From a virus, in the IMG/VR virus record IMGVR_UViG_3300037087_000053, positions 1-45,424 of that record: a stretch of 45,424 bases of DNA; one strand, written 5' to 3'. Shown in pieces: positions 1 through 45,216 of this stretch. Made by a program: the position numbers and the translations under genes. The notes under the pieces were generated by a model that worked only from the letters and a program-made list of their open reading frames with translations, did no database searches and was not told the origin of the DNA. Numbering within the stretch: the first letter of the stretch is position 1; each line of letters begins with the position of its first letter.

Positions 1-127
1 TTGCTGCTTTTATACTTGACTTAGGTTCTTCTTGACCGTAAACCAAAATATTGTAACGGTTGAAGTATTGCTTTGCCAGTGTCGTGTACTTCGCTGCCTT
101 GTCGTTATAATTAACTACATCTGCCGA
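1..127. repeat. Exact 127-bp direct repeat of 42183-42309
   Basis: The first 127 bases are identical to 42183-42309; the first mismatch is at 128 (t) against 42310 (c). Similarity continues at a lower level to about 590, ending where the two connector genes stop being homologous. An exact match of this length right at a contig end is what a de Bruijn assembler with k=127 leaves at an unresolved repeat. It may therefore mark an assembly-graph junction as well as real paralogy. Confidence 0.95.
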
Positions 128-1030
128 TATGCTTGCATCCGTAGATTGAGCGTAAGCAGTGGCAAGTCTTTGACAAGCGTAAGCTGCTGCAAGCGTTGTG
201 ATCTGCGAGAAGTTCGCATTCGTATCTGGAAAGTTCTGTAATCCTACTTGTAGATATGGTTCGACGGTAAATGCAAGAACAAAGAAATCGGACGTTGAGG
301 GATTATTTTCGATTAGCCACAATTGCAGATTGCTACCGTCCTGTGCCGTACCGTCATCGTATATCTGCCAATCCTCGTCTATAAGTAGAGAAGGCGGTTC
401 TAATCCATAAGGATATTCAATACCGAATATTTGAGAGTAGCCATGCTTCCAAAGACCTGTAAGGATCGTGCTCAAGAGATACTTATTGCTTCCTGTCCCG
501 GTAATCTTCTTTGCTACCTTCAATGGAACATCTCTTCCCCAATCGGTAACAGCCTTTTTCAAAAGTAACGCAACATCAATTACCGATAATTTTGCAGCTT
601 CATCTTGGATTAACGATGCAATCTCATCAAGATATGCCTGATAGCCAGTGCTGACTTCAACATATTCTGGATTAGGGTAAAGCTCAACCGTTACCATCCA
701 CACGCCGGCACCAGTACCAAATATTCCGAGCGCTCCGTTGACAGTATCAGCAAGGAATGAGATCGTTCTTGTGATACCCGATTCTTGAGCAGGTATAACT
801 TGAATTGGATCTGCGTTGATGAATGCTACTGTTGCAACACCAACACCACGCCTGATCGCTCCCATAATCTCAAACACTGAACTATCACTTGAATCTACCG
901 CTTTAACGTTTACGTGAACCTGAAAACTATACACTGTATTATCACGTAAGACTATTCGAGTGCCACTGACTGTTAACAGTTCGTGTTGAGATGAATCGCT
1001 AATGGTTTGTATGATACTTTTTTGAATCAC
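1..1030 (-). CDS. Head-tail connector variant, 3'-truncated by window edge, fibre-type N-terminus
   Basis: An open frame of 343 codons runs from a GTG at 1030 off the left edge. The GTG overlaps the TAG of a 15-codon mini-ORF (1030-1077) that starts just after the upstream fibre gene. Residues from about 129 on (starting GYQAYLDEIASL) align without gaps to the connector encoded at 42076-43059, roughly four fifths identical by eye. The last 127 bases are exactly identical to 42183-42309. Residues 1-125 are unrelated to that paralogue. They resemble the beta-rich C-terminal domain of phage fibres (pattern RIVLRDNTVYSF...GAIRRG...WMVTVELYP). The connector role is inferred from the paralogue's position upstream of the gp10-like gene and from an adaptor-like C-terminus. 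The fibre-domain assignment is pattern recognition only. Confidence 0.75.
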   Translation of the reverse strand, partial: MIQKSIIQTISDSSQHELLTVSGTRIVLRDNTVYSFQVHVNVKAVDSSDSSVFEIMGAIRRGVGVATVAFINADPIQVIPAQESGITRTISFLADTVNGALGIFGTGAGVWMVTVELYPNPEYVEVSTGYQAYLDEIASLIQDEAAKLSVIDVALLLKKAVTDWGRDVPLKVAKKITGTGSNKYLLSTILTGLWKHGYSQIFGIEYPYGLEPPSLLIDEDWQIYDDGTAQDGSNLQLWLIENNPSTSDFFVLAFTVEPYLQVGLQNFPDTNANFSQITTLAAAYACQRLATAYAQSTDASISADVVNYNDKAAKYTTLAKQYFNRYNILVYGQEEPKSSIKAA

Positions 1031-1084
1031 TATTTCCCCACTATGAATTGATTGAATGATTGGGTAATAAATGACATCGCTTAA

Positions 1085-3061
1085 TTATTTTAATTTGGTT
1101 ATTGTCATCCAGCTTCCAATTATAACATCTACTTCACCTGCCGCGCCTGTGCTTTCTATTTGTAACTTAATCGTGCCTGCGGTGCTGCCTACAGTCAACG
1201 CTCCGTTCATTATGTAGTTTGTTGTTCCGCTGGTAGCCATGGAATACACCGTTGTTAAATTTTCCGCGATAGGCGATTCGCTACGGAGTACATCTCCAGC
1301 ACCTCCTACTTGTCTAGTTCCCCAGAAAGTAGCTCCTGATGGAATTACCACCTTAATATTTGCTGCATCGTCACCAGAGGAACTCCCTCCAAAAGCTATC
1401 GTTACACTGTAAGTAGTATTTGCACTTACGTTAAGAGACATATTCGTAACATCTACATAGGTCAGTGAGGTTGTAATAAATTCACTGGTTGTTTTTGTAT
1501 AATCGCCACCACCACCCGCCGTACCAGTTCCAATTGCTGTTCTAAAATCAGAGGCAGAAAGTGCGTCAACTGAATTGTTTGCGTTCATTCTTAAAAATGT
1601 AATCGCAGAAGGATTTGTGAGTTTAACTATATTCTGACCTACTGTTGAAGCGTCTGATATTGTAGAAATTGCTTGAGTATGCGAAGATGCAGCAGCACCA
1701 ACATCAGAATAAGTCAAATTTCTATCTGCTGATAAATCAATTGAACTTGTTATCTTTCGAGTCGAAGGAACGCCACCGAGTCCTGACAAAGTAATCGCCG
1801 CTGCCGCGCCCGAAGCGTCTGCACCAACTTCCGTATAAGTATAAGACGGTTTTGTTAACGCCTTTGCCCATGCATATACATCACTTGCTGGAAGTGTCGT
1901 TGGATATGCTGGCAGTCCATAATCGCTTGTGGATGATGGATGACTCCCTGAATACCAATAACCAACACCCGTCCATGGTGTGCCTGTTACATATCCCATG
2001 CCCGTCCAAGGTGTTCCGGTAACATACGATCTTCCTATAACCCACGCTTCTATCTTTGTCATCTGAATATTTGGAGTATCAATTATTGCCGTATTATCTA
2101 CCTTACTCAATAAATCTGTTTTAGTTGCCAGTTTTCCAGCGGACGTATCAGGAATTATCGCCACTGAATCAGTCATATCGTTTATAATTATATATCCAAG
2201 TTGTTTTAATTTTTTGAAAGCTAAATCAACTCCTATTTTTGTTTTGAACAATCCCACTCCAAGACCTGCAAGATTGCTTGCCGTGTTTGCTTCACCGCCT
2301 CCGCCACTTGTTGCATTTATAGTTACATCACCAAGCCCTGAACCTGGAGAGAGTGTAACATTTGAACCAGCTATAATCTTTTTAACTTTTGCTTCTGTGT
2401 GGGCAGTATCGTTTACGGTGACAGTAGTTACAAACTCGGAAGCATTGTGAGTGTAAATATCACCAGCGCCTGAAACAGGTAGATAAACTCCGTTATGCGA
2501 GTGATCTCCATACGCAGCGGTCGAATGAGATGTTCCGAACCCCGGAAACGAAACCGTTGCAATTAAAGCAAATAACTCAAGTGCATGATTTAACGTTACC
2601 GCATGACCAACTTTATTCGTATCTCTTCGAGCTTCATACCAATTCGAATCTGTTTTTGCGGCACTATTCAACCCTACTATCAAAGGTTGATAGCCGTTAA
2701 GAATCACATCTATTTGAGCACGCTTGTAATAATACTGCGTATCTATTCTCGCAAAATAATCTTCAAGAAGTTTATTTGTTCTATATTGCGATTCCATCAA
2801 AGCTATAGAGTCTGCATACTTCACATTCAGTTTGTTAAAAAGTTTCACATAGTTCTTTGAAGCAAACCCCGGATCAGAAGTCGAATCGCTTGAAGCGCTG
2901 CTACCGTTCAATCCTTTTACAACTAGGACCGCTTCATTCTTACCGTCAATTGAAGCGTAGATAGTATCACCTATAAAATACCAATAGACTGGATTCTTGA
3001 CTGGTGTCTGAGAAAACGCAAAAGAAGAAAACAACAATATGAGTGTTAATAATCGTTTCAT
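1085..3061 (-). CDS. Fibre-like virion protein with signal peptide (658 aa)
   Basis: Residues 1-18 (MKRLLTLILLFSSFAFSQ) look like a Sec signal peptide. The rest has the low-complexity, Gly/Ser/Thr/Asn-rich modular make-up of phage fibres: an AGSNVTLSPGSG motif, two YVTGTPWTG repeats, an SDVYAWAK...KPSYTYTEVGA module that recurs in the tail spike at 32227-34464, a GGGG linker, and a C-terminal beta domain ending in SWMTITKLK. It lies between the QEALN-repeat protein and a connector gene, directly downstream of the capsid genes, so a head fibre or decoration is as likely as a tail fibre. The corresponding place at the other end of the contig (43486-44997) holds an unrelated SGNH-hydrolase fibre. 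No enzymatic domain is recognised. Confidence 0.75.
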   Translation of the reverse strand: MKRLLTLILLFSSFAFSQTPVKNPVYWYFIGDTIYASIDGKNEAVLVVKGLNGSSASSDSTSDPGFASKNYVKLFNKLNVKYADSIALMESQYRTNKLLEDYFARIDTQYYYKRAQIDVILNGYQPLIVGLNSAAKTDSNWYEARRDTNKVGHAVTLNHALELFALIATVSFPGFGTSHSTAAYGDHSHNGVYLPVSGAGDIYTHNASEFVTTVTVNDTAHTEAKVKKIIAGSNVTLSPGSGLGDVTINATSGGGGEANTASNLAGLGVGLFKTKIGVDLAFKKLKQLGYIIINDMTDSVAIIPDTSAGKLATKTDLLSKVDNTAIIDTPNIQMTKIEAWVIGRSYVTGTPWTGMGYVTGTPWTGVGYWYSGSHPSSTSDYGLPAYPTTLPASDVYAWAKALTKPSYTYTEVGADASGAAAAITLSGLGGVPSTRKITSSIDLSADRNLTYSDVGAAASSHTQAISTISDASTVGQNIVKLTNPSAITFLRMNANNSVDALSASDFRTAIGTGTAGGGGDYTKTTSEFITTSLTYVDVTNMSLNVSANTTYSVTIAFGGSSSGDDAANIKVVIPSGATFWGTRQVGGAGDVLRSESPIAENLTTVYSMATSGTTNYIMNGALTVGSTAGTIKLQIESTGAAGEVDVIIGSWMTITKLK

Positions 3062-3066
3062 CTTCG

Positions 3067-3345
3067 TTAAGGAGTTTGTGCTTTTAAATTCAATGCTTCT
3101 TGAAGTGAATACCGATGTTTATTCATTTCACCTGCATATAAGCAAGCTGCTTCTTGATCTGTGTAAGTATGCAGATCGATTGCGCTCGCTAAAGAGTTCA
3201 ATGCTTCTTGAATTGAATAATGATGTTTATCTACGGTCTGACCTGCAAGAACATTTAGAGCTTCTTGCAAAGAGTAATGATGCTTATCGGATTGTAATGC
3301 TATAACATTGGCCGCTTCTTGTGCGGTGTAAAGATTCAAGTCCAT
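3067..3345 (-). CDS. QEALN-repeat protein (92 aa), possible fibre-base protein
   Basis: The protein consists of five tandem repeats of about 18 residues with the core Y-(S/T)-x-QEA-(L/A)-N-x-x-A-x-x (for example YSLQEALNVLAGQ). Similar repeats occur in many phage structural proteins, often just before fibre genes. A second copy, cut by the window edge, is at 45217-45424, and the two share 90 identical bases. Its stop at 3067 is five bases from the start of the fibre gene, so the two are probably co-translated. A role as a short oligomerising or attachment element for the fibre is inference. Confidence 0.7.
   Translation of the reverse strand: MDLNLYTAQEAANVIALQSDKHHYSLQEALNVLAGQTVDKHHYSIQEALNSLASAIDLHTYTDQEAACLYAGEMNKHRYSLQEALNLKAQTP
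3185..3274. repeat. Exact 90-bp direct repeat of 45335-45424
   Basis: Bases 3185-3274 are identical to the last 90 bases of the window; the nearest mismatch is 3184 (g) against 45334 (a). Lower similarity covers the rest of the two QEALN-repeat genes. Together with the 127-bp repeat at position 1 it brackets two alternative fibre cassettes of nearly equal length (about 3.06 and 3.03 kb). Confidence 0.95.
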
Positions 3346-3366: not shown

Positions 3367-3402
3367 GAGCGGTAGGAGGAGTCGAGCCAAGAACTACCGC
3401 TC
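3367..3402 (-). terminator. Hairpin between the 158-aa gene and the QEALN-repeat gene
   Basis: Perfect 8-bp stem GAGCGGTA/TACCGCTC with a 20-nt loop, followed on the minus strand by an A/T-rich stretch (ATTTAATT) but no clean T-run. It could be a weak intrinsic terminator or an mRNA-processing or stability hairpin separating capsid mRNA from fibre mRNA. Confidence 0.4.
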
Positions 3403-3428: not shown

Positions 3429-3905
3429 TTACCTTGTGTAATGAATCTCAATACGAGGTCGATACAGATGTCCATTCGTACTGACTTGAATCTTTAATTT
3501 GTAATAAGCTCCGATTACCAAGTGTCCTATTGCAGGAGTTGTCGGGCTTGCTGTAACCTCGATATTAGAAACACAAAGATGTAGCTGTGCAATTACTGTG
3601 CTTGCGATATTGGTTAATGGATAGAATCTATAAAGCACAATTGAGTCAACGCCTGTCGTAGCATGTGATGCTGAGATAGTCGTATCTACACCTGCTGCCG
3701 TTGCAACTAATCCAATAACGTTCATCGAGTAAGGCACATAAAAGATGCAGAGTGTATCGACCGATGCAGCTTTACATGTATCGATTTCAAATGTCTTTAC
3801 CATCACTGGCGTTGCAGCACTTATAGGAACTGTTTGCGCTTGCAATGGTTGTGTAACCGCAGAGAGCGCAAGAACGATGAGAATAAAACCAATTATCTTT
3901 TTCAT
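3429..3905 (-). CDS. Secreted-type small protein after capsid gene (158 aa), possible decoration protein
   Basis: Residues 1-24 (MKKIIGFILIVLAL...LQAQ) form a clear signal peptide. The remaining 134 residues are Thr/Val/Ile-rich and probably all beta-strand, with four Cys that could form disulfides outside the cytoplasm. The gene is the first after the major capsid gene, the usual place for a head decoration protein or head-fibre base. The signal peptide argues for export instead, unless it is retained in the virion protein. No family recognised. Confidence 0.6.
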   Translation of the reverse strand: MKKIIGFILIVLALSAVTQPLQAQTVPISAATPVMVKTFEIDTCKAASVDTLCIFYVPYSMNVIGLVATAAGVDTTISASHATTGVDSIVLYRFYPLTNIASTVIAQLHLCVSNIEVTASPTTPAIGHLVIGAYYKLKIQVSTNGHLYRPRIEIHYTR

Positions 3906-3977: not shown

Positions 3978-6179
3978 TTAAACAACAGACCCGTCGAAGA
4001 ATCGATAATCAGTGATACCACCACCATAAATATGTCGAATCTTATAAGTCGTTTTGTCATTCGTGAACCATGAACCGACATTAGGAATATCCGATACTAA
4101 CAGTTCAGGAACTTCTTGACCGTCTAAGAATCCGATTTCAATACCAACACCGCTATTACGTGAAGCAACAAGAGCCCAATCATTTGCATCTGTCCAGTAA
4201 TCAACACGGATTGGAGTGATACCAAGTTGCTGATAGAACTCAGGAACCATATTCGATTTACCGAACGCATTGGTTGTTAACTCGTAACCCGTCTTTTCCA
4301 GATCTGGAGGCACGAGCAAATAACCTGCAACAATACCGAGACGCTTGCTATTGTCGCCTTGAGCTTGTTTAAGCATCCTTAATCGCGCAGCAGTCAAATA
4401 GGTTGAGTCAAGCGCGCTTGCGCCTACGTTTGAATGACCTGCAACGTAAAGCACCGAACCATCATAAATTAGTCCAGTATAAGATGGTTTCACAAAATCA
4501 TAAACGAATTCATGCAATGTCTGTCCTGCAGCACGAGCCATGCGAGTAGGAATTTTCACAATTGCACCAACATCATCGTTTTTAATCATTTCAAGTGTAA
4601 CGTCTTCCGTTCCACCGCGTTTTGATGGGCTGTAGTTCATCGTCTCGTCAGTTGGAGAAGACAACCCAAGGTAGGGACCACCTTCTGCTACAGCAGGTAA
4701 ATTACCATACCCACCGTACCTAACCCTTGTTTGTGGACGGAAGTCTTTCGGTGAAGTAACATCCGTAAATACTCTCCATGTGTCGAGAGCCAGCATATTG
4801 TAATCTTTGACTAATTGCCGATTCAAAGTATTGGCAAGGATGTTTGCCCAGTCAGTCGTTTCGAGAGAAAAGAGCAACCGTTTCGATTCCTTCTTCAATC
4901 CGGTTACATTGACATCACCGGTCGCCATTATGTAAGCTTCTTTAATTGAACGAATCGGTGAAACATTCCCATTGCCTACTTTTGCAATTTTATTGTATTC
5001 ATCCGATCCGGCTTTCAAAGGTTTAATCGCGGAGCCATTGCAAGCAAACATAAGCTCAAGTCCAGCTTGAAGTTTGTCAATGCTTTCCGGCCCAGCGTGA
5101 ATATCCATACCATGATTATTAACTTCTGGATTCGTGAAGTGCGCTGCAATCTGCCGGAATGAATTGATCGTATCATTCAGTTCCGCAGCAGCGAATACCT
5201 TTCCTTCGTAAAGCTTTCGAACTTCCTTTTGAACTACATCGGGAAGTTTGCTCTCTGTGAGCGCCGATGAAAGCTGCGAAGCACAAGCTATCAAACGCAG
5301 TTGTTTGATTTCTGCTTGCTGTGCATCCAGCGCTGCTTTAATTGCCTTATCCTGTTGTGGAGGAGTAGGCGGCACTGGAGGAGTTGGTTCATCTTTATGC
5401 ACTGCCGCTTTCAGTTCATTAATTTTCGTATCAAGGGTTGAGCCAATTGTTTGTGCATCCCATCCTTCCGGTAGATGCAATCGATCCTGTGGCTTATCAG
5501 CCGCAAGTAAATGACTGTAAAGTTCGTTCTCATTCACTTTCAACCAATCGATATTCTTTGAAGCAAAGATAACCGGATAGGCAAGAGCGAAGAGCGCCAT
5601 TAATTTTAGTCGTAATTCCATGAGAGTATCTCCTTGTGATTGTGAATGTGATGCCACTAATCGATTAAATTTTCCACCCGCTGCACCTCTCGGAACTATA
5701 TCGACATCGCCACCTGCAAATCCTGTTACAATAGGAACCGTTTCATTCGCCTCCGATACAAACCTTGTTCCCTCTGAATAATAACCACCATCGATTGACA
5801 GTTGAAATACGTCAAGTTGATTCTCTGCTCTAAGAACAAGTAGGTTGTCTTTAAGCCATTGAGCGGACGGTAGAATATGAAACTCATATCGTAGTTCATC
5901 TCCTTGTACGTAACCGTTCTTCAAAAAGCCAACAACTTCCTTGATTCCTTTTTTGCTTGAATCGATCTTATGCCCGAAGAAATCTGCGTCCTCATTAACA
6001 TATACTCTTGCACCGTCAAAGACGTTCTGCGAAGATGTGAGCGCTTCCTTTGCTATGAACAAATGAGGTCTCGCAGGAGCGAAGCCAGCTTGAACAACCG
6101 TAACATCCCATATCGTTCCTTCTGAATTGCCGGCGGCAATAGAAGCGTTGAACTTAAATATGTTTTTCTTCTTGATCAT
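3978..6179 (-). CDS. Prohead protease-major capsid protein fusion (733 aa)
   Basis: Residues 1 to about 180 resemble the Mu-like prohead protease seen fused to capsid proteins, with FGHKID near residue 69, QLSIDGG near 130 and VDIVPRGAAGGKF near 160-172 as the protease-like landmarks. A linker and coiled helical region (about 190-350, including a Pro-rich PTPPVPPTPP stretch) plausibly acts as scaffold or delta domain. Residues about 370-733 look like a Mu-T-type major capsid protein, with TDWANILANTLNRQL and the C-terminal TTYKIRHIYGGG...DYRFFDG. The start overlaps the previous stop (TAATG), implying coupling. Known for the family: the protease cleaves itself and the scaffold during head maturation. 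Confidence 0.85.
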   Translation of the reverse strand: MIKKKNIFKFNASIAAGNSEGTIWDVTVVQAGFAPARPHLFIAKEALTSSQNVFDGARVYVNEDADFFGHKIDSSKKGIKEVVGFLKNGYVQGDELRYEFHILPSAQWLKDNLLVLRAENQLDVFQLSIDGGYYSEGTRFVSEANETVPIVTGFAGGDVDIVPRGAAGGKFNRLVASHSQSQGDTLMELRLKLMALFALAYPVIFASKNIDWLKVNENELYSHLLAADKPQDRLHLPEGWDAQTIGSTLDTKINELKAAVHKDEPTPPVPPTPPQQDKAIKAALDAQQAEIKQLRLIACASQLSSALTESKLPDVVQKEVRKLYEGKVFAAAELNDTINSFRQIAAHFTNPEVNNHGMDIHAGPESIDKLQAGLELMFACNGSAIKPLKAGSDEYNKIAKVGNGNVSPIRSIKEAYIMATGDVNVTGLKKESKRLLFSLETTDWANILANTLNRQLVKDYNMLALDTWRVFTDVTSPKDFRPQTRVRYGGYGNLPAVAEGGPYLGLSSPTDETMNYSPSKRGGTEDVTLEMIKNDDVGAIVKIPTRMARAAGQTLHEFVYDFVKPSYTGLIYDGSVLYVAGHSNVGASALDSTYLTAARLRMLKQAQGDNSKRLGIVAGYLLVPPDLEKTGYELTTNAFGKSNMVPEFYQQLGITPIRVDYWTDANDWALVASRNSGVGIEIGFLDGQEVPELLVSDIPNVGSWFTNDKTTYKIRHIYGGGITDYRFFDGSVV

Positions 6180-14050: not shown

Positions 14051-14079
14051 ATTATAAGATTTACTTATCAGAGTGTCAA
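14051..14079 (-). promoter_or_regulatory. Consensus sigma70 promoter for the packaging/head operon
   Basis: Minus strand: TTGACA (14079-14074), 17-nt spacer, TATAAT (14056-14051), both hexamers perfect. The -35 overlaps the stop of the upstream gene. Bases around the -35 (AAATCTCTTGACA) are identical to those of the early promoter at 27132-27161. Confidence 0.85.
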
Positions 14080-14942
14080 GAGATTTGTTCACTATTTTTG
14101 ACTAATTTCATACCGTAGTTATTGATTCCCTGCGGAATAACGATGTTTTTCTTTAATCGGAGTTTATTATTTTTGAAAGGTCTATAATCTACCTGGTGTT
14201 GCCAGCGTCCCCATTTCCGAGTTATCTTCGCAACATCTGGATGTTGTCTTTGTAAAGATTTTGCCATTTCTAAAAGACCATCAAATTTATCATCCTTTTT
14301 ATAAAGTTCATCAGTATTACCACCTTTCATGTTCATTGTTGCTACTTTTTCGCACAGAAAAGTATTGAATAGAATTGTACAATATCCATCTTTTAAAACC
14401 CGTAGAGATAGATCGGTATCTTCATTATATTTACCGCGCCAGCGATATGGAATACTGTTTTTGATTGAGATACAAGAATAGATCCTATCATTTAGATAGA
14501 ATAAAGGTTGCGATGCTGAAGATGGAGAATTATTACCGAGAAAATGATAATTGAAACCAGCAAGAGCTATATTCTCGTACCTATCAATCAGCCCTTCGTC
14601 AGTCACTTTTGCATAAGCACTCGAGTACACCAAAAGAAGTTTGGCTGCTTCCTTCCTGTCCTTTGCATCGATGAAATTAGCGGGAAGTATTACGGGAACT
14701 GATATGCCTTCATTCTCAAGGTCAAGCAATACTCTGCACCTATGCACTCCATCAAGTGTATAAATCTTTCCATCCTTCGCTTGCCAGACTGCGAATGGAG
14801 CAATGAACTGATTCTCTTTCATCGAGTGCTTTAATTTCAGATAAGATGCCTCTGATAACTCTTTGAAGTTCTTCCCTTGGATTGGGAGTAACTCTTTCCA
14901 TTTCACATTTTCGGTCTTTAAGATTCGGTTCTCGATGTTCAT
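14076..14942 (-). CDS. ParB-like domain fused to C-terminal half of a TET-associated glycosyltransferase (288 aa)
   Basis: Residues 10-115 form a ParB/Srx-like domain with the GVHR motif at 65-68. Residues about 122-260 closely match the C-terminal half of TET-associated glycosyltransferases (TAGT): NIALAGFNY, DRIYSCISI, IPYRWRGKYNEDTDLSLRVL, LFNTFL, MKGGNT and KWGRWQHQVDYRPF. The N-terminal, nucleotide-sugar-binding half of TAGT is absent and the ParB domain joins directly to the remainder. Family knowledge: TAGTs glycosylate 5-hydroxymethylcytosine in phage DNA. A working enzyme is doubtful; an in-frame deletion joining two genes is the simplest reading. AAAGGAG precedes the start. No TET gene is seen in the window. 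Confidence 0.75.
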   Translation of the reverse strand: MNIENRILKTENVKWKELLPIQGKNFKELSEASYLKLKHSMKENQFIAPFAVWQAKDGKIYTLDGVHRCRVLLDLENEGISVPVILPANFIDAKDRKEAAKLLLVYSSAYAKVTDEGLIDRYENIALAGFNYHFLGNNSPSSASQPLFYLNDRIYSCISIKNSIPYRWRGKYNEDTDLSLRVLKDGYCTILFNTFLCEKVATMNMKGGNTDELYKKDDKFDGLLEMAKSLQRQHPDVAKITRKWGRWQHQVDYRPFKNNKLRLKKNIVIPQGINNYGMKLVKNSEQIS

Positions 14943-19040: not shown

Positions 19041-19168
19041 AATGTTGTTTGTGTTTGCCGTGCGAACCTAACCAAGCACTCAATTTGACCGTCAGAGCTT
19101 GGGTGTAATATTCCGTTTTGTTTTATTTCTTTTAGCATCGGGTTTTGAGTATTATTCAAGTTTTTCAT
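19037..19168 (-). CDS. attC-encoded leader peptide before cassette B methyltransferase (43 aa)
   Basis: The frame starts in attC B and encodes NPMLKEIKQNG...SSDGQIECLV, then runs 10 codons beyond R'' and stops at a TGA overlapping the methyltransferase ATG. The N-terminus of the cassette C methyltransferase is nearly the same peptide. Its likely role is to bring ribosomes to the methyltransferase start; there is no reason to think the peptide itself acts. Confidence 0.4.
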   Translation of the reverse strand: MKNLNNTQNPMLKEIKQNGILHPSSDGQIECLVRFARQTQTTL

Positions 19169-19195
19169 CGCGGCAAATTAGTGCCACCGTTAGGC
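19066..19195 (+). other. attC site B (130 bp)
   Basis: R'' ACCTAAC (19066-19072), CAA spacer, L'' GCACTCAATTTGACCG (19076-19091), L' CGGCAAATTAGTGC (19171-19184), R' GTTAGGC (19189-19195). L'' minus one C and one A pairs perfectly with L' over 14 bp. The central part is nearly identical to attC C. Confidence 0.92.
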
Positions 19196-19918
19196 CGTCC
19201 GCGTTAATAGCGGGTACCATTGTTCTGCCATCGCGTTTGCAATGCCAATCCAAAACTTGCTCCTTGTTTTCCCGCCGTGCATTGCCTCTGTCCAGTGTAT
19301 TTTTTTTCCGTTCGTTTTCAATGTGTATATTGCTTCCGGTTTTTTTATTGCGCTTTGTTTTTCAAATAGGGTGTCCATCTTTGTATGTTTTAATGGCGGC
19401 AAATTTTTCAACCATAGGCACGTTCTCTTTTGTGCTGCATCTCCGAAGTAGTATGGTTGCACAATTTGGTCGTATCTTTTGAACGCCTTGCTTGCATACC
19501 CTAATGGGTTCTCTACGCATATTTTGTCTATTGGCGCATTGTAGAGCAACTTGAAAAATTCCAATGCTTCCTCTCTTTTCTCTGCTCTTCCTGGCTTGTT
19601 CCAATGCCGTGTCCCAACATAACTAAGATACGTGCAAGGCGGGTGCGCTATCATAATATCCCAACCATCTGAAAGAATATCGCGCACATCCCCTTGGTAG
19701 TGCCTTCCCTCGCTTTCCGTGGGTAACAAGTCGCAAGACATTGCAAACGCTCCGAGGCGTGAGAAAGCATCTCGTACTATTCCAGAAAATTCGCAAGCTA
19801 CCAAAACACGCGGCGGCCTAACCAAGCACTCAATTTGACCGTCAGAGCTTGGTTGCAACATTCCGTTTTGTTTTATTTCTTTTAGCATCGGGTTTTCAGT
19901 ATCATTAAAATTATTCAT
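19190..19918 (-). CDS. Cassette C: compact C5-cytosine methyltransferase-like protein (242 aa)
   Basis: Motif I-like RVLVACEFSGIVRDAF at 37-52, catalytic HPPCTYLS with Cys 95, and motif VI VENP at 135-138 match small phage C5-methyltransferase-like proteins that lack a large target-recognition domain. Typical relatives begin at about RVLVACEFSG. Here residues 1-34 come from attC C, so the attC has supplied the start codon. No ribosome site precedes ATG 19918. The stop TAA is at the cassette boundary. Known roles: 5mC formation, sometimes a first step to hypermodified cytosine. Confidence 0.8.
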   Translation of the reverse strand: MNNFNDTENPMLKEIKQNGMLQPSSDGQIECLVRPPRVLVACEFSGIVRDAFSRLGAFAMSCDLLPTESEGRHYQGDVRDILSDGWDIMIAHPPCTYLSYVGTRHWNKPGRAEKREEALEFFKLLYNAPIDKICVENPLGYASKAFKRYDQIVQPYYFGDAAQKRTCLWLKNLPPLKHTKMDTLFEKQSAIKKPEAIYTLKTNGKKIHWTEAMHGGKTRSKFWIGIANAMAEQWYPLLTRTA

Positions 19919-19945
19919 CGCGGCAAATTAGTGCCACCGTTAGAC
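19816..19945 (+). other. attC site C (130 bp)
   Basis: R'' GCCTAAC (19816-19822), CAA spacer, L'' GCACTCAATTTGACCG (19826-19841), L' CGGCAAATTAGTGC (19921-19934), R' GTTAGAC (19939-19945). Same 14-bp stem and the same two extrahelical bases as attC B. The R' TTA at 19940-19942 is the stop codon of the 121-aa phage gene. Confidence 0.92.
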
Positions 19946-20305
19946 AGTCGTTCGCGAAGCGTTGGAACGCCTCTTAAATGCAACGTTTAGCTTTAGTTTC
20001 GGGAGAAAAATAAGTTCTTCGCTTTCTCGCGGTGTAATCGGCGTCGATCTGTATTCAAAAATGTCATCCATAATTAGATTTTTGTCGCCGCTAACAATTC
20101 TCAGCTCATTGAGAATTTCCTGGTCTATATTTGCAATGTTCATATATCCTCCATCCTTTTGTATCGGTATTTTATATTGTTGGAAATATTTTATCCAACA
20201 AAAAATGTTCCATGTTGAATGAAATGGTATTTTTTCCGTATTTTTAATTGCCATCCAAGAACGACATCGCCTACAAATTGTTTGTGGTTTTCCAACTGTC
20301 ATCAT
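19940..20305 (-). CDS. Hypothetical protein at the array insertion point (121 aa)
   Basis: GGAAACAG precedes ATG 20305, and a very strong GGAGG precedes an internal ATG at 20143 (MNIANIDQEILNEL, 67 aa); either could be the true start. The N-terminal part has a CRRC pair and Trp/Phe-rich segments; the C-terminal part is charged (EYRSTPITPRESEELIF). Its TAA stop coincides with the R' core of attC C, so it is the native gene next to which the cassettes were inserted, or a fourth cassette lacking its attC. No family recognised. Confidence 0.5.
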   Translation of the reverse strand: MMTVGKPQTICRRCRSWMAIKNTEKIPFHSTWNIFCWIKYFQQYKIPIQKDGGYMNIANIDQEILNELRIVSGDKNLIMDDIFEYRSTPITPRESEELIFLPKLKLNVAFKRRSNASRTTV

Positions 20306-22069: not shown

Positions 22070-22492
22070 TTATTTGCTTTCAAGATATGTTAAAGCCGCT
22101 TTTAGTATGTTTATATCGTCTTTAAATAATCCAAGACATCTATTGCACCTTGTGCATAAAAGTCCACGAACTCTTCCAGTGGTATGATCATGGTCAACTG
22201 GAAATCGCTTCCATCTACCGCCTGCTTTATCAGAACCACAAATCGCGCAAACACCCTTTTGAATCTTCAATAGTTCATCATATTCAAACGATGTTATGCC
22301 AAACTTTTTTATCAGTTTTTTGTTCCGTGCCTCTTTCCTATTAAGAGTATATTTTGCTCGTCTAAGAGCTTTGAACCATTCTTGCTTTTGATAAGCATGG
22401 GTATAGTCAAGGCATTTTTTTCGATTGTTTTTATAATAATCGCGCTGTTTTGCTCTATGATGCTCAGTAGTTTTATAATTTGCTTTTATCAT
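22070..22492 (-). CDS. Recombination endonuclease VII-like HNH nuclease (140 aa)
   Basis: ATG 22492 (MIKANYKTTEHHRAK) is preferred to an upstream in-frame TTG in the previous gene. The basic N-terminal half (RDYYKNNRKK...) is followed by CAICGS...RFPVDHDHTTGRVRGLLCTRCN, the Cys-coordinated endonuclease VII signature with the DHDH active region, and a C-terminal LGLFKDDINILKAALTYL helix. Relatives resolve branched DNA or act as homing nucleases. The single-gene tail end of the recombination operon fits either. Confidence 0.8.
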   Translation of the reverse strand: MIKANYKTTEHHRAKQRDYYKNNRKKCLDYTHAYQKQEWFKALRRAKYTLNRKEARNKKLIKKFGITSFEYDELLKIQKGVCAICGSDKAGGRWKRFPVDHDHTTGRVRGLLCTRCNRCLGLFKDDINILKAALTYLESK

Positions 22493-22493
22493 A

Positions 22494-22724
22494 CTATTTA
22501 CATTTTCTAAATCGAGAAGCAAATTTACACGTGGCGAAATGTGACATGTGCTTCGTCCGGTCGAATATCAGATCGTCCGTTGCTTCAAGAACCATCAGGT
22601 CACCTTTTGTAATCGTATCTGCATTGACAGGCGTGAATCCACCTTTCGATGTGTGCAACATCCATATTGCAACCTTACAAGCTGGGCACACTTTTTTATA
22701 AGGTTTGTTTTCATGATATGCCAT
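22494..22724 (-). CDS. Small zinc-finger-like protein (76 aa)
   Basis: VCPACKVAIWMLHT near the N-terminus and HFATCKF near the C-terminus give C-x2-C...H-x3-C, a likely zinc ribbon around a beta core. Start five bases after the stop of the 56-aa gene. Stops with TAG one base before the next ATG, showing that TAG is used as a stop in this genome. No family recognised. Confidence 0.55.
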   Translation of the reverse strand: MAYHENKPYKKVCPACKVAIWMLHTSKGGFTPVNADTITKGDLMVLEATDDLIFDRTKHMSHFATCKFASRFRKCK

Positions 22725-23525: not shown

Positions 23526-24449
23526 TCACTTCTTAATCACAAAAACTTTATCAGTGGAATTGTATTCGAGTCCAACTGCAATCGCTCTCTTTTTCAAGAG
23601 TGCAAACATCTGCAATTGAATCGTCCGGTCCGGTTCTGCACCGATAATTGGTATCTGCTTATTGATGCCCTTCAAGTCGTCGATTTTGACAAGCGATGCA
23701 TCGAATCCCTGAATCTTCTTTACCGCTTCCGCTTGCGCTTCATCCAGTGCGTTCATCTTTGCAAGCGTTTTGTCTATCAAGTCCTGCAGGAAGGTTGCAA
23801 ACTCTACTGTTCGATAGTCCGGTATCTCTACCAATGGAAGCTCAGCGCAATTCTTACCGATGTGTGAATCGGTAGGATTGAAGTCAATCACTCGCTTGTT
23901 CTTGTTGGAAGTCATGTAACCAATAAGATCACATTCCTGCCTGAGTATATCGTAACTTCCACCTGTTACCTTCGGGATGAACTTCGTATTGTCGCCTTCT
24001 TCCATCGATGTTGTGTGCGATATGAATATCAGGTTGACGTGTTGCATCTTCGCCCAACTTTTGAACTGCGAAAACACATCCTTCATTGCACCGTAGCCCT
24101 GCAATGAAAGCTCTCCACCTCTCCGCTTGTTCTTTGGATCTTCATTCTTGACGTAATCTGCTACGTAGTTGTCAAGCATTCCGCCTGCCGTATCGATGAT
24201 AAGAGTCTTTGGAGCCATTTCTTTGTACTCTGCGGATTCTTGAAATGCTTTTACATCTACCCAACTATTGACTCTCAATACGGTCTGCCGGAAGCAAGCC
24301 CGTTGAACACCTCCATCGAAGTCAAGCAGTAGAGGTTGGTTGGTGGTGAATGCAAGGGATGTCTTTCCAATTCCCGGATCACCGTATATCAAGGCGATTA
24401 AAACTTCCGTCTTGATCGTCTCAGTTTTACTTATGATTTTGTAGCTCAT
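23526..24449 (-). CDS. Sak4-like RecA-fold ATPase (307 aa)
   Basis: Walker A GDPGIGKT at 23-30, Walker B TLIIDTAGG near 82-90, and FISHTT near 143 as the sensor strand give the short RecA core of phage nucleotide-binding proteins of the Sak4 type. The C-terminal 100 residues are helical. AAGGAG precedes the ATG. Sak4 proteins anneal or exchange strands in phage recombination, and the neighbouring exonuclease and SbcC-like genes fit. Confidence 0.8.
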   Translation of the reverse strand: MSYKIISKTETIKTEVLIALIYGDPGIGKTSLAFTTNQPLLLDFDGGVQRACFRQTVLRVNSWVDVKAFQESAEYKEMAPKTLIIDTAGGMLDNYVADYVKNEDPKNKRRGGELSLQGYGAMKDVFSQFKSWAKMQHVNLIFISHTTSMEEGDNTKFIPKVTGGSYDILRQECDLIGYMTSNKNKRVIDFNPTDSHIGKNCAELPLVEIPDYRTVEFATFLQDLIDKTLAKMNALDEAQAEAVKKIQGFDASLVKIDDLKGINKQIPIIGAEPDRTIQLQMFALLKKRAIAVGLEYNSTDKVFVIKK

Positions 24450-32226: not shown

Positions 32227-34464
32227 TTATTGAGTTTTAAGTAATCCATAAGTTTGTCCCACTCCCAAGGTGACATAAATAATTTTCAATTTATATGTAG
32301 CTAAACCACCTAAAGTCTCTGACACATATAATTCAACATCCGATTGACTGCCAAAATTAGCATCGGTTATTCCGTAACCAGCTAAATTTGTTGGAGTGCT
32401 TCCAAGGTCTGAATAATTGTAGCTTGGTTTTGTGCTCGCTTTTGCCCAAGCATAGACATCGCTTGCTGTACGAGAATCAGAAAGACGTGAATCATTGCCT
32501 TGACAAATCTTGCCTGAAGCAGTACCAAAATTTGACGACCAATTTCCCCATCCATAAGCAGTATTCCAATTCGTGGAGTTTCCACCTGTTGCGGTTATTG
32601 TTCCATTAAAATATCCATTGCCATTTACAGCTAATTTATTATTGGTGATTTCTGTACCTGTGGAATACCCGATGCCGACGTTGCCGCCTGTGTAGCTTAT
32701 ATCACTCCCACTTGTTACCCACTGGGAGGAAACAAGAGGAGTTCCGCCAATTTGGTATGTCTTGCCTGATGCTATGTTGACGTTGCCTGTAGCTCCAAGA
32801 TTGCCTAAATTGTCTATCCAAAAATGCTTAATACCGTTTGTGAATATCTTTAAAGAATCAGTTGCGTTGTCATACGCAATCTTTCCAGCTTCGACATCTC
32901 CTGCATTTGTAAGCCGTATAACTGATTGACCTGTTTCATCTGCAATTATAGAAATAGCTGCATTTGTTCCTGATGAGATGTTTCTTTGAAATGTGGCAAC
33001 TTCATCACCGACAGGAGTGTAAGTAGAGCCAATTCCACCCGATACAACATAAAGAGGTGTCTTGATAACTGATGTTCCTATACTAACTTTCCCTGGTGAA
33101 TAATATATATCGCTTCCAATCGTTGTCCACTGACTTGTATTGGCATTCCACTTTAAAGTATCTGAGAAATCTCTCGTTGTTCCCCATGCTCCATTAATTA
33201 CAGTTGGCACTCCCGTTCCAGATGGAAAGTCATCAACCTTAACATTCGTGCAGTTTGTTTGAGTTAACAAAGTAGGAAATGAGCTATTAATACAACCAGT
33301 AATGAAAACCTTATTAATATTTGTCAAGTTAATTGCGGAACCACTTGTCTTTCCATAAAAAATACAACCGTCGATTACAATATTCTCTAATTTACCGAGT
33401 GCATAAGAAGACATTGAAATCGCTTTACCAGTTGCCGTTACGGGAACACCAATCCCATCTCCGACAAAATATAGATGCCGATAACTATTATTTGATGAAC
33501 CTCCATTATTTACTTCGACGTGAACGCCATCATTCAAGAAGTTCTCTATCGAAGTGTTAGCAACATGCAGTATGATTGTCGTTTGCGTGCTTATTAATTC
33601 CAAACCGTTAGAGAATTCTTGTGTTGGTCCCGTACCTTCATCGAAGTTATACCCTGCATTTATTTTTACATTACTAATCTTACCTCCACCAGATCCCTCT
33701 ATTCTTATTGCCGATTGAGCTTCATAATCGTTAGAATAGAAGTTCGAATTGGATATGCACCAATCTCCGGCATCAACATTAACAGTGTTGTTAATTCTAA
33801 GTCCACAATAAACAGGACTGTAAATGAAAAGATTATCGGCTACCCACTCTGACCCTACTTTTACATCGATACAAATATAAAAGCCATGAACTGATACCTT
33901 GGTATAATCTACTTTCTGGGCATGGTAATTTGTAACGCTACTTGTTACAAGTATTCCTATTGAACTGCTTAATGGATTTGTGCAAGTATTCTTTAATGCA
34001 ATATTTTCAAATCTTGCACCGTATGTGTTGACAGTAAATAAGACTGCAGTCTGTGAAGTGCAATTAACTTGGCTCACACCATTTGACAAGCGTGTTTCCA
34101 TGCCACAACCCAAAATAGTCATTGGTGATGTTATTGCAGTAAGACCTTGACTGACCTTGTATATCCCCGGAGGGAAATAGAGTGTTCCACCAACAGAAGC
34201 ATTCAATACCGCTATTGCGCTGTCTATCGCCTTGTAGTCATCGGTCGTTCCGTTTCCAGTTGCTCCATAGTCCTTAACATTTATCCATCCGTTTATAGGT
34301 GATACAGGATTAAATTTATTTAAAAAGAGCGAATCATTATCATTATGAGGTTTAATTCTATGACCTGCTGGATTGACCGCCCCCGATTGATCCTTCTTAT
34401 CCCATTGAGCATTTGCAATCAACGGAAGAAGCATCATTAACAACATTAATATTTTCTTCTTCAC
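32227..34464 (-). CDS. Tail spike with pectate-lyase-type beta-helix and signal peptide (745 aa)
   Basis: I choose the GTG at 34464 (reads MKKKILMLLMMLLPLIANAQ), which overlaps the previous TGA as GTGA; an ATG 12 bases earlier is the alternative. After the signal peptide, WINVKDYGATGNGTTDDYKA opens a Pectate_lyase_3-type right-handed beta-helix to about residue 420. A fibre part follows (SIGTSVIKTPLYV, SGSDISYTGGNVGIG). The C-terminal region shares ASDVYAWAKASTKPSYNY with the 658-aa fibre. A receptor-degrading spike is probable; no catalytic residues can be pointed to. The signal peptide on a virion protein is odd. Confidence 0.75.
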   Translation of the reverse strand: MKKKILMLLMMLLPLIANAQWDKKDQSGAVNPAGHRIKPHNDNDSLFLNKFNPVSPINGWINVKDYGATGNGTTDDYKAIDSAIAVLNASVGGTLYFPPGIYKVSQGLTAITSPMTILGCGMETRLSNGVSQVNCTSQTAVLFTVNTYGARFENIALKNTCTNPLSSSIGILVTSSVTNYHAQKVDYTKVSVHGFYICIDVKVGSEWVADNLFIYSPVYCGLRINNTVNVDAGDWCISNSNFYSNDYEAQSAIRIEGSGGGKISNVKINAGYNFDEGTGPTQEFSNGLELISTQTTIILHVANTSIENFLNDGVHVEVNNGGSSNNSYRHLYFVGDGIGVPVTATGKAISMSSYALGKLENIVIDGCIFYGKTSGSAINLTNINKVFITGCINSSFPTLLTQTNCTNVKVDDFPSGTGVPTVINGAWGTTRDFSDTLKWNANTSQWTTIGSDIYYSPGKVSIGTSVIKTPLYVVSGGIGSTYTPVGDEVATFQRNISSGTNAAISIIADETGQSVIRLTNAGDVEAGKIAYDNATDSLKIFTNGIKHFWIDNLGNLGATGNVNIASGKTYQIGGTPLVSSQWVTSGSDISYTGGNVGIGYSTGTEITNNKLAVNGNGYFNGTITATGGNSTNWNTAYGWGNWSSNFGTASGKICQGNDSRLSDSRTASDVYAWAKASTKPSYNYSDLGSTPTNLAGYGITDANFGSQSDVELYVSETLGGLATYKLKIIYVTLGVGQTYGLLKTQ

Positions 34465-35159
34465 AATGTGATCCATCCTATAATAAGTCCAGCGTCATCC
34501 GCTCCAGCAGCGGAAGTTATCGTGAAGCTCACCCCTTCGATAACCGCACTGACATAAATTGCCATATTACTTTTTCCTGCTTGTCGAGATAAAAATATCT
34601 TTTCGATGGTAGATATATTTGCATTAGCAACTGTAACGGTTCCGCTTCCATCGAGTGTAGCATTCCCATCCGCTAAGATTACGCTACTACTACCACCTGA
34701 CTCACCGCCTTCGCTACTACCGTCCATTAAGGTTACGCCACTCGACAATAAGATATAGCCATTCGCATCCTGTGCTATACTCACGTCCACAATGTTGCCA
34801 GATTGACCACTTGCTTGATTAAAATCGCTTGGTGGTTCACATAAACACAAATTTGAATAATCGTAGTTTCCAATATCTTTGAAGTCTCCATAGACAGCCC
34901 ACTTATAGGGTGCAGTAAAGAACGCATTGAAGAAGCTCCTGCCTGCAGCAGTAGATAATATCGGTCTGCCTATTTTAAATTCTAATCGCTTTGTTTTGCT
35001 AACCGAATCTCTTATCGTAACAAAGTCAACAAGTGTATGATAGATAGAATTTATTACAGTTGTTGCTTTAGCCCAAGCAATCGTATAGGTAGCGATTGTA
35101 GCGGTATCCAAGCTGTTCTCTGTGTTGTAAGCAAATATGACTGAATAAGGTACGCTCAT
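34461..35159 (-). CDS. Tail tip/fibre-related protein (232 aa)
   Basis: N-terminal 130 residues resemble a tail-tip component (YNTENSLDTATIATYTI...RPILSTAAGRSFFNAFF...APYKWAVYGDFK). The C-terminal 60 residues form a fibre-type beta domain (GTVTVANANI...SAVIEGVSFTITSAAGADDAG...IIGWI). It overlaps both neighbours by 4 bases, between the hub protein and the spike, and so may link them. Moderate confidence in a structural role. Confidence 0.6.
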   Translation of the reverse strand: MSVPYSVIFAYNTENSLDTATIATYTIAWAKATTVINSIYHTLVDFVTIRDSVSKTKRLEFKIGRPILSTAAGRSFFNAFFTAPYKWAVYGDFKDIGNYDYSNLCLCEPPSDFNQASGQSGNIVDVSIAQDANGYILLSSGVTLMDGSSEGGESGGSSSVILADGNATLDGSGTVTVANANISTIEKIFLSRQAGKSNMAIYVSAVIEGVSFTITSAAGADDAGLIIGWITL

Positions 35160-38601: not shown

Positions 38602-39233
38602 TTAGTTCCGAGGTTGGAAGCGTTCGACTTGTTGTTCGTAATCCGCTAATGCTCTTTGATCTTCCCGTCTTTGATTTCGTTTAGCATTCAATAGGAACCA
38701 TTTATAAACTTCGATTGCAGGTGCATCCGCTATTGCTTTCTTGTCTGCATAGTTTCCATCGGCTGCGTTGAAGATTGACTCTTCCCATTTGATTGGATCT
38801 CCATTGGGCTTTTTGAGTTCAACGAGATCAAGGTCGAGATAAATTCTGAACTCATTGAGCTCATCATCGAGGAGATGTTTAATACGAAAAAATCCTGTAA
38901 AACTTTTCTCCTTTGCCACTTTTGCATACAGAGAATTGGCTTCTGTAAATCTACGTTATTCTTCCAGGCAAAGAATCGCTGCTTAATCTTATTCCAAAGT
39001 GAAGGAGTGTGTTGCTTCAAAATTACCTTGAATAATTCAGGAAGCAATGGATTAGCTAAGAACTGATCGATCCCAAAAACAATATTAGTGATCTTGACTT
39101 CTGATTGCATACGTTCTACAATTTCATTCGTCTTGCAATCTTCTTCATACGTTCCCTGTTCCTGCCTCCAGTTTGTGCCATTGATTAAATAATAAGCTAT
39201 TGGAGGAGCTTGTTCTAATTCTTTAGACTCCAT
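38602..39233 (-). CDS. Tail assembly chaperone GT product by -1 frameshift (about 210 aa)
   Basis: Frame 0 from ATG 39233 would shift by -1 at TTTTTTC (38892-38886), after codon 116, into the frame that ends at 38602. The joined protein continues RIKHLLDDELNEFRIYLDLD and ends ADYEQQVERFQPRN, natural-looking sequence, whereas the unshifted continuation is low-complexity. Position directly before the tape measure is diagnostic of the G/GT arrangement. An independent start at a GTG (38919) cannot be excluded. Confidence 0.75.
38730..39233 (-). CDS. Tail assembly chaperone G product (167 aa)
   Basis: ATG 39233 (MESKELEQAPPIAYYLINGT) lies inside the end of the LamG-bearing tube gene (11-base overlap). 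The first 115 residues are ordinary protein (VFGIDQFLANPLLPELFKVIL, WNKIKQRFFAWKNN). Beyond the slippery site the frame becomes Ser/Met/Gln-rich. G proteins are made in excess over GT and coat the tape measure during tail assembly. Confidence 0.7.
   Translation of the reverse strand: MESKELEQAPPIAYYLINGTNWRQEQGTYEEDCKTNEIVERMQSEVKITNIVFGIDQFLANPLLPELFKVILKQHTPSLWNKIKQRFFAWKNNVDLQKPILCMQKWQRRKVLQDFFVLNISSMMSSMSSEFISTLISLNSKSPMEIQSNGKSQSSTQPMETMQTRKQ
38886..38892 (-). other. Programmed -1 frameshift site TTTTTTC
   Basis: The heptamer reads T TTT TTC in the frame of ATG 39233 (TTT starts at 38891), the X XXY YYZ pattern for tandem tRNA slippage, within the overlap of the two chaperone frames. 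Confidence 0.7.
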
Positions 39234-40395
39234 AGATCGACCTTTCCGCAGCGTAATGAGCAGGCGCCATATACGCAAGACTAATATCGGTACTGCTGAT
39301 GTGGAATCTTGCATCTCCGAAATCTGCCTGTCCGTAAGTTGCACCGCCTCTACCGATATAAAGATGAACGGTGTTTGTTAGGCTGCTTTGACTGCCAATC
39401 GCTACTTGCGTTTGATTGGTAACGTCTCCATTCGTAACCAATTTCATATAATTATCTGCAATTATATTGTAAGAAACAAAGACATGCGTCCACACGCCTT
39501 GAGTAACCGTATGATAAGATGCAACTGATTTCGCAGTCGAACCATCGGAAATATGAGCATAGATTTTATTATCTGCACCTCTTTCAATCCAAAATCCTAC
39601 GGATGATGAACTTGCTGCCTTTGTAATAAGTGGCACGAGCGTTCCATCTGATGCTTCTATTCTCACCCAAAAATCAAGAGCCCAAGAGTTCACTGTTGGA
39701 TCGCATACATTACCAAAGTCTGCCATACCATCTGCACCACCAAAGCGCAAGAACCTTATCGGAGTAGTTGCTGTCTGCCAAATACCTGCTATTCCTCCGG
39801 AGGTTTGCGATAAGACTCCGTGATTTGCGAATCCAGATATATCAAGGATTCTCGATGTTGCATCATTCCATAATCTTCGTGGAGAAATCCAAAGAACGTT
39901 CTTATCCAAATACATTGGACCAAACGTCTCTGCATCATAATATTCAGGAGTGTCAAATACGGAGTTATCCTGTTTTAAAAAGAAAGCAGTCAATGGAAGA
40001 TTCTGTTTGCCCGCCTTCCATGTCCGAGGAATGTAAGGAACGATCTGTGCTAATTCAGCGCATTTATATTGGAATCTCCATGGATTCATCATACCGTAAT
40101 AACGGAGTGAATGAGTCTTTAATGCAGAGTTCTTTATAAAGTCAATCTCATCCTGTCCTACCTGAGCTAAGAACGTAGAGAACTTATGAGATGTTTCACC
40201 TACACTTATCTTTGAAAGGTTACCGCCTTCGTCCTTATGCTCAATGACTTGCGCTTGAGGATCAATAGTTGTGCCGTCTTCCGATAACCATCCAATGTCA
40301 GTGTAAGCGGTTTCAAGATTTGGAGAAAGCTCTCGCACCCAAAGATTAGCGAGCCCCTTTACTCCCTCACGAGTACGATCGCGTTGCAGTCCCAT
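39223..40395 (-). CDS. Tail tube paralogue with C-terminal LamG-like domain (390 aa)
   Basis: Residues 1 to about 150 are a paralogue of the next upstream tube protein (MGLQRDRTREGVKGLANLWVR against MGLQRLRTRENAKGGGNLWIR). Residues about 170-390 form a concanavalin/LamG-type domain (NHGVLSQTSGGIAG, ALDFWVRIEASDG, GVWTHVFVSYN, VHLYIGRGGATYGQADFGDARFH). AAAGG precedes the ATG. The added domain probably projects from the tail surface and may bind carbohydrate. Confidence 0.75.
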   Translation of the reverse strand: MGLQRDRTREGVKGLANLWVRELSPNLETAYTDIGWLSEDGTTIDPQAQVIEHKDEGGNLSKISVGETSHKFSTFLAQVGQDEIDFIKNSALKTHSLRYYGMMNPWRFQYKCAELAQIVPYIPRTWKAGKQNLPLTAFFLKQDNSVFDTPEYYDAETFGPMYLDKNVLWISPRRLWNDATSRILDISGFANHGVLSQTSGGIAGIWQTATTPIRFLRFGGADGMADFGNVCDPTVNSWALDFWVRIEASDGTLVPLITKAASSSSVGFWIERGADNKIYAHISDGSTAKSVASYHTVTQGVWTHVFVSYNIIADNYMKLVTNGDVTNQTQVAIGSQSSLTNTVHLYIGRGGATYGQADFGDARFHISSTDISLAYMAPAHYAAERSIYGV

Positions 40396-40413
40396 AGTAT
40401 TATCCTTTCAGGA

Positions 40414-40986
40414 TTAAAGAACTGCCGTTGCAAGACTTGACGCTGTATCCGTTGGCTTGCCGTATGCAGAAGCTAATACGATCTCAGTCATCACATAAGG
40501 TATTCGTTCCGGTGAAACGACAACGTTAAACGCTGTCGGTGTCCGTGTGAAAGCCGCTGCAGGAGCCAACATATAAATATCGCAAGGCAATGTCCGTTGA
40601 CTGGATTTATATTCGATTGGAACACCCATCTTAATTTGACAGATGGCCGCACTGATTTCTTGTATGTCTCCATTTTCAAGCAATGCCGAATAATACACAT
40701 CGTAGAATACGTTGTTGTTTGAAAGTTTGTTGACAAGATCAATTTCGTCTTGACTGACTTGATGCAAGATAGTTTTCAGCATCGCTGTACGATCGGAGTA
40801 AAGAACGATAACGAGATCGCCACGTTCATCCTTCGATTCAACGGCTGTCTGCTTATCGTCAAGTGTTGTTCCACCTAACCAGCCAACATCGAGGAAGGTA
40901 TTTGAAGCTGTTGGAGATATTTGCCGAATCCAAAGGTTTCCTCCGCCCTTTGCATTCTCACGAGTCCTTAATCTTTGCAAACCCAT
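40414..40986 (-). CDS. Major tail tube-like protein (190 aa)
   Basis: Beta-rich protein of typical tube size in the correct place between tail terminator and chaperones. It shares its N-terminal half, including the QDEID...SL pattern, with the longer paralogue downstream. AAAGGG precedes ATG 40986. The call rests on synteny and size more than on a motif. Confidence 0.65.
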   Translation of the reverse strand: MGLQRLRTRENAKGGGNLWIRQISPTASNTFLDVGWLGGTTLDDKQTAVESKDERGDLVIVLYSDRTAMLKTILHQVSQDEIDLVNKLSNNNVFYDVYYSALLENGDIQEISAAICQIKMGVPIEYKSSQRTLPCDIYMLAPAAAFTRTPTAFNVVVSPERIPYVMTEIVLASAYGKPTDTASSLATAVL

Positions 40987-41009
40987 TGTAGTGCCCTTTC
41001 AATAAAGTG

Positions 41010-41495
41010 TTATGATAAATCTACTATTCTTTCCGTAACTTGCAAGCGGAATTCTGCTTTATGACACATACGACCGCCCAGAAAAACAAATATTGCATTC
41101 ACAGTCCGTTGTAATGGATAACTCATTTCATCGATATCACCGCCAAGATTCTGAATGAATCGAAACTTGTCTTGCACCGCATCCACCAACGCCTGGAAGA
41201 TTGGCTCGCTAACATTCTCTTTGTAACCGTATAGAATCGTTATTATCCAGTTGTCATCGGCTTGCGTGTGAGTAATTATATCGCGTTCATCTCTTGATCC
41301 AAACTTTGAATCAGCACTATCCGTTCCATTCGACCTACTCAACCAACAGGTATTAATTACATTGTTCTTCACAAACCGTGTCGTATAGTTTGCTTCGTTG
41401 GTAACGTCTTGCGGTGTAGCATAACACATACCAATTCCATTAACTGCTTGAAGCAATGCAAGGATAGCACTATTTTGAACTGTGTAAAAACCCAT
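41010..41495 (-). CDS. Tail terminator/completion-like protein (161 aa)
   Basis: ATG 41495 overlaps the upstream TGA (TGATG); a GTG three bases earlier is the alternative. Mixed alpha/beta protein with NWIITILYGYKENVSEPIFQALVDAV and a C-terminal strand-rich segment (EFRLQVTERIVD). Length and position between the gp10-like neck protein and the tube suit a tail terminator, by synteny. Confidence 0.6.
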   Translation of the reverse strand: MGFYTVQNSAILALLQAVNGIGMCYATPQDVTNEANYTTRFVKNNVINTCWLSRSNGTDSADSKFGSRDERDIITHTQADDNWIITILYGYKENVSEPIFQALVDAVQDKFRFIQNLGGDIDEMSYPLQRTVNAIFVFLGGRMCHKAEFRLQVTERIVDLS

Positions 41496-43059: not shown

Positions 43060-43131
43060 TTAATTTTGTCCTTGAAATCTGAATCCTGCATATTGTGTCG
43101 ACTCTACTGGATTGATTGATCTCTTTGCCAT
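43060..43131 (-). CDS. 23-codon ORF coupled to the connector gene
   Basis: ATG 43131 (MAKRSINPVESTQYAGFRF...) stops with TAA immediately before the connector ATG (TAAATG). A comparable 15-codon ORF (1030-1077) precedes the other connector copy, where its TAG overlaps the GTG start. Shared position in both cassettes suggests translational coupling; the peptides are unrelated. Confidence 0.35.
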   Translation of the reverse strand: MAKRSINPVESTQYAGFRFQGQN

Positions 43132-43163
43132 TACTATAACCAAGTTGCTATTGCTACTCTCTG

Positions 43164-43457: not shown

Positions 43458-43485
43458 GGCACTCCTCTTTTAAGTCCTGTTGAAT

Positions 43486-44997: not shown

Positions 44998-44998
44998 A

Positions 44999-45211: not shown

Positions 45212-45216
45212 TTTCG

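Follow-up and report, generated by a model that had tools for sequence, protein, structure and literature searches.

The window, by which we mean the whole 45,424-nt stretch of viral DNA analyzed here (IMG/VR record IMGVR_UViG_3300037087_000053), ends on both sides in a group of genes encoded, like the neighboring genes described with them, on the minus strand. At the left end, the gene for the major capsid protein, which has an N-terminal protease-like part (3978–6179), is followed by a gene for a 158-aa protein of a conserved family with a Sec-type signal sequence (3429–3905). Next comes the 5′ flank of the cassette, an ORF for a 92-aa QEALN-repeat protein (3067–3345; here called Q), which is 71% conserved at the amino acid level in the related contig L004. 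The ORF behind it (1085–3061), also present in contig L002, encodes a 658-aa fibre-like protein with short matches to phage tail fibre and pyocin knob proteins, and the adaptor gene at the end is cut by the contig start (2–1030). At the right end we observed a partial second copy of Q (45209–45424; 94% identical to 3059–3274 over 216 nt), an ORF for a 70-aa linker-like protein (44999–45211), a 528-aa SGNH/GDSL hydrolase fibre (43486–45072), a 97-aa fibre-tip-like protein with weak matches to PHROG tail proteins (43164–43457) and a second version of the adaptor gene (42076–43059), downstream of which a neck/tail completion protein is encoded (41495–42079). The SGNH fibre matches PF13472 with 41.8 bits (cut-off 32.9) as well as the virion structural PHROG phrog_10356, and its start is likely at 44997. 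Sec-type signals were found on the fibres of both cassettes, and also on those of L004 and of a further contig, L139. No carbohydrate-esterase-like domain was found in the first allele, while the second contains the SGNH/GDSL domain. A sequence search with the SGNH protein, the fibre and the adaptor against solved structures gave no match. The original prediction had described the contents of the two ends as a 658-aa fibre against a 70-aa linker, an SGNH fibre and a fibre tip, which is correct.

By comparing the window with itself we confirmed the exact flank matches of 127 and 90 bp. At the 3′ flank, where the alleles fork in the C-terminal part of the adaptor core, positions 1–127 are an exact copy of 42183–42309; at the 5′ flank the last 90 bases of the window (45335–45424) equal 3185–3274. 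It is out of the question that a 127-base match occurs by chance. The cassette ends are also nearly equal in length, as had been noted: the fibre allele comprises 3,057 nt and the SGNH allele 3,025 nt, the part common to both is 39,125 bp, and the resulting genomes have 42,182 or 42,150 bp. The content between the flanks had been called completely different. This is true for most of the DNA, which is unrelated, but not for the 3′ flank, where homology between the left and the right window end spans 643 nt at 80%. Here the identity falls from 100% (positions 1–120) to 78% (201–240) and further to about 60%, and the homology ends where the core of the adaptor gene gives way to the N-terminal domain. 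The label ‘connector’ for the gene at this flank was right but understated, as each allele has its own N-terminal adaptor domain.

A scan of IMG/VR contigs with the capsid protein yielded two contigs from other metagenomes than the window, L002 (IMGVR 3300037225_000094) and L003 (3300036884_000039), in which this protein is 100% identical to that of the window. Their backbones are more than 99.7% identical to the window and each of them carries one cassette. L002 follows the window colinearly between 14512 and 1275 (99.9% over 13.2 kb) and leads from the capsid gene through the 158-aa gene and Q directly into the 658-aa fibre. L003 tracks the window from 16798 to 3059 at 99.75%, apart from one gap of 619 nt, and past 3059 switches to the sequence of the right end: Q, the 70-aa gene, the start of the SGNH gene, the end of the 97-aa gene and the SGNH-type adaptor, with an SGNH flank identical to the right end of the window over 578 + 759 nt. 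About 1.57 kb of the SGNH part is deleted in L003 at the 9-base microhomology CAACTCAAT (13475–13483 of L003), and the remaining 112-aa reading frame fuses the N-terminus with the C-terminus of the fibre tip; this deleted version either represents a third variant of the locus or arose as an amplification or assembly artefact. Together, the three contigs present a core of more than 99.7% identity with two sharply different modules at one place. Because L002 and L003 join the same head module to either one, the cassettes are alternative alleles of one site. At the level of assembled contigs, a near-identical backbone thus occurs with either cassette at the same site, which supports the proposed replacement between haplotypes. 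The contig itself suggests that both alleles are present together in the window's own sample.

The repeats at both contig ends would also fit a duplicated flank, that is, a single genome, at least about 45.5 kb long, which carries both cassettes in tandem and whose assembly was broken at the repeated flanks. However, a tandem of fixed order gives only one join, whereas the capsid module meets the SGNH side in L003 and the fibre in L002, each junction leading to one cassette. The longer contigs of relatives mostly measure 40–43 kb, and the complete genome of Microcystis phage Mae-JY22 measures 41.4 kb. Moreover, searches with the fibre, the SGNH protein and the adaptor found no contig with both cassettes and returned only L002 and L003 with one allele each. 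The tandem arrangement, the second reading offered in the original prediction, is therefore unsupported and in our view very unlikely. An exact 40-mer from the shared 3′ flank had no match in viral contigs, nor had the region 39001–45424 in a DNA search against named phages. A chimera of two unrelated phages made by the assembler is already contradicted by L002 and L003, two independent contigs which repeat the head module of the window plus each cassette, and capsid, adaptor, neck and tail genes of the window's kind occur together in the related contigs L083 and L084 and in Mae-JY22. Such contigs may occur, since the tail module of L139 is of the window's kind and its head module apparently is not, but for the window we regard this origin as barely credible. 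The contig in question (L139/L145, IMGVR 3300049914_000047; 40.4 kb, from the same metagenome as L004) has its own terminase, portal, capsid and connector, seemingly joined via fibre genes to a window-type adaptor and tail module, and is either a natural recombinant or a chimeric assembly.

The order of capsid, adaptor, neck and tail genes in L083, L084 and the complete Mae-JY22 supports a circular map, as had been suggested with about 42.2 kb; the genome would have about 42.15–42.18 kb. De Bruijn assemblers stop a contig where the path forks, and the resulting contig ends overlap by the largest k. Settings quoted for metaSPAdes include k up to 127 (PMC10914622), and if such settings are assumed for the record, the 127-base contig start fits an assembler fork between the alleles. 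At the right contig end the exact overlap is 90 instead of 127, so a graph node does not fully account for this end. The assembler would have made a single circuit of the shared 39.1 kb, with a different allele taken up on either side.

For the 5′ edge of the cassette (3127–3184) we compared the differences in four sequences. Those at 3382, 3184 and 3179 are common to L002 (fibre) and L003 (SGNH) against the fibre copy of the window, and from 3127 down every difference tracks the cassette type in all four sequences. This comparison places the edge inside Q, at some point from 3179 to 3127. At the opposite flank, the divergence of the alleles falls inside the adaptor core. Because the identity decays at both flanks and flank SNPs reassort, we infer from these few sequences that the exchange took place by homologous recombination in the conserved flanks. 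Candidate agents are encoded on the minus strand of the window, namely a Sak4-like annealing protein (23526–24449) and an endonuclease VII of the Holliday-junction resolvase family (22070–22522); the phage also encodes an exonuclease.

Taken as a whole, the locus is very probably one variable locus with two alleles exchanged by homologous recombination. A single phage species, whose genome forms a circular map of ~42.2 kb, holds between its capsid and adaptor genes either the 658-aa fibre or the 70-aa protein together with the SGNH-esterase fibre and the fibre-tip protein, and each allele brings its own N-terminal adaptor domain. Co-infecting relatives would swap these alleles by homologous recombination in Q on one side and in the adaptor core on the other, probably aided by the Sak4-type annealase and the endonuclease VII that the phage itself encodes. 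An active programmed switch, by a site-specific invertase or a diversity-generating retroelement in place of ordinary recombination, could account for clustered, mostly amino-acid-changing differences between L002 and the window near the end of the shared fibre (codons 527, 529, 588 and 595), but these sit near the end of contig L002. Among the scanned ORFs of the window there was no invertase, integrase or reverse transcriptase, and neither a template repeat nor inverted repeats around the cassettes were detected at the settings used. We consider such a switch highly improbable. A diversity-generating retroelement was rejected in the absence of a reverse transcriptase in the scanned ORFs and of a template/variable repeat pair, and an invertible fibre segment of the phage Mu G-loop type was rejected as no inverted repeats (at the settings used) and no recombinase were found. 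Elsewhere in the backbone, the portal gene contains clusters of mostly silent differences among the window, L002 and L003 (9560–9758 and 10412–10486), which, with the backbone otherwise near-identical, look like another recombined tract.

Under homologous exchange of two alleles, the adaptor gene is the place of one crossover. Its core occupies 2–646 in the fibre-allele version and 42076–42828 in the SGNH-allele version, and its N-terminal domain about 647–1030 (a beta-sandwich) and about 42829–43059, respectively. The cores of both alleles share 83% amino acid identity and the N-terminal domains, of about 128 aa (fibre allele) and 77 aa (SGNH allele), are unrelated. In most relatives the adaptor protein has about 225 aa and begins at the core; the N-terminal domain type of the fibre allele recurs in L083 and L139 and that of the SGNH allele in L084. 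The AF2 model of the right-hand adaptor has a mean pLDDT of 78.7, with most of the core above 90, and in Foldseek it matched adaptor/connector chains of N4, GP4, P1 and phicrAss001 (E 3e-4 to 3e-3, probability 0.99–1.00). Portal-adaptor proteins of these four phages were matched by the models of both versions, with modest TM-scores (0.3–0.5), so that the predicted fold is that of P22 gp4/N4/GP4-like adaptors within the limits of these scores. The gene lies between the capsid/portal and the neck/tail genes. Its predicted fold and position identify the 3′-flank gene as a head-to-tail adaptor. For the fibre-allele version, modelled with an all-strand N-terminal domain, there were further matches of low TM-score, over about 130 columns, to tailspikes and tail fibres from phages of Acinetobacter and Klebsiella; on the model we assigned these matches to the N-terminal domain. 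It is conceivable, though rather doubtful, that the N-terminal domain of the adaptor in either allele is the attachment point of the neighboring fibre, and that crossovers in the core swap a neck fibre and its matching socket as a unit while the head–tail ring is kept. The link between fibre and adaptor domain is not strict, because L083 has the domain of the fibre allele without a fibre gene at the site.

Next to the capsid gene the site is variable in relatives as well. In most of them, the interval between capsid and adaptor contains either almost nothing or a single small gene. It measures 2.4–4.1 kb in five contigs (L006, L025, L044, L053 and L080), where the genes are larger; several of them are fibre-like, and Ig-like, peptidase and unknown types also occur. 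L004 (capsid about 73%) has the 158-aa and Q genes as well, and behind them a third signal-bearing fibre. The 158-aa family was also observed in L005, L083, L006, L053, L033, L040, L015, L048 and L007, with a Sec-type signal at the start of nearly all members; the member in L054 has no signal and starts at the mature part. Signal sequences on proteins encoded among head genes are unusual, and our literature search on signal sequences in phage virion proteins found nothing pertinent; a sequence search of the 158-aa family against solved structures gave nothing meaningful. A scan of genome contigs recovered only distant relatives (31–49%), mostly in Proteobacteria, which is too distant for assigning a host. 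Further along the window, a gene for a TET-associated-type glycosyltransferase (14076–14942), 619 nt of which are missing in L003, suggests modified phage DNA, and two direct repeats of 133 nt each (19067–19199 and 19817–19949; 92% identical, 750 nt apart) lie beside DNA methyltransferase genes.

Capsid and neck genes flank the cassette site, which is separated by about 8 kb from the gene for a pectate-lyase-like tailspike (32227–34476, minus strand), a separate candidate receptor-binding protein of the tail end. Since this tailspike is recognizable, the cassette is probably not the only receptor binder, nor the one at the tail end. The original prediction's view of the cassette genes as receptor-binding is plausible, but their place is in the head/neck module, with the tailspike elsewhere. 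We tentatively propose, at somewhat less than even confidence and by analogy with phage DEV, that the cassettes are alternative neck or collar fibres which bind or deacetylate surface glycans, with the extra adaptor domain facing outward. Capsid (head) fibres are a second possibility which the map position allows equally. One would not expect Sec-type signals on parts that assemble in the cytoplasm, and we counted them against the fibres being in the virion as our best explanation has it.

In this natural population both breakpoints of a fibre swap are visible, with one crossover inside the protein that joins head and tail, so that the exchange affects its accessory domain only. Should the fibre and the adaptor domain prove to belong together as a pair, this would point to a rule for the viability of natural fibre swaps. 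The window also calls for caution with viral contigs: a 45.4-kb record consists of one ~42.2-kb genome plus the second allele of one locus, so that both its length and the number of its genes make the genome look larger than it is.

Mae-JY22 (PP438414.1), the closest named phage found (capsid 33%, adaptor core 28% amino acid identity), resembles the window in the order of capsid, adaptor and then tail genes up to the tape measure in its complete genome of 41,362 bp. Unlike the window it has no cassette; its adaptor gene begins about 150 nt after the capsid gene and encodes 226 aa, with no room for an extra N-terminal domain. In the N4-like Pseudomonas podophage DEV, the head-to-tail adaptor gp83 has an extra outward-facing lectin-like domain, and the collar at the adaptor is made of gp53, a long fibre with a coiled coil and a carbohydrate-esterase-like domain, which the phage needs to infect O-antigen-bearing cells (PMC10925440). 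We consider DEV the best analogy for the cassettes; following it, one of the two putative neck or collar fibres would carry an esterase (SGNH). The extra adaptor domain is inserted into the helical bundle in DEV but extends the N-terminus in the window, and we found no exchange of alleles described for DEV (PMC10925440). Exchange of fibre modules in near-identical phage populations is already known: Bellas et al. (2020) described near-identical phage cores with interchangeable modules (metagenomic islands), including tail fibre and GDSL lipase, of which several variants co-exist in one sample, proposed recombination and found that a constant-diversity model fits (PMC7468147). Compared to these modules, the alleles of the window are largely non-homologous, lie in the capsid–neck interval and include the N-terminal domain of the adaptor, whose exchange together with the fibre is a new detail.
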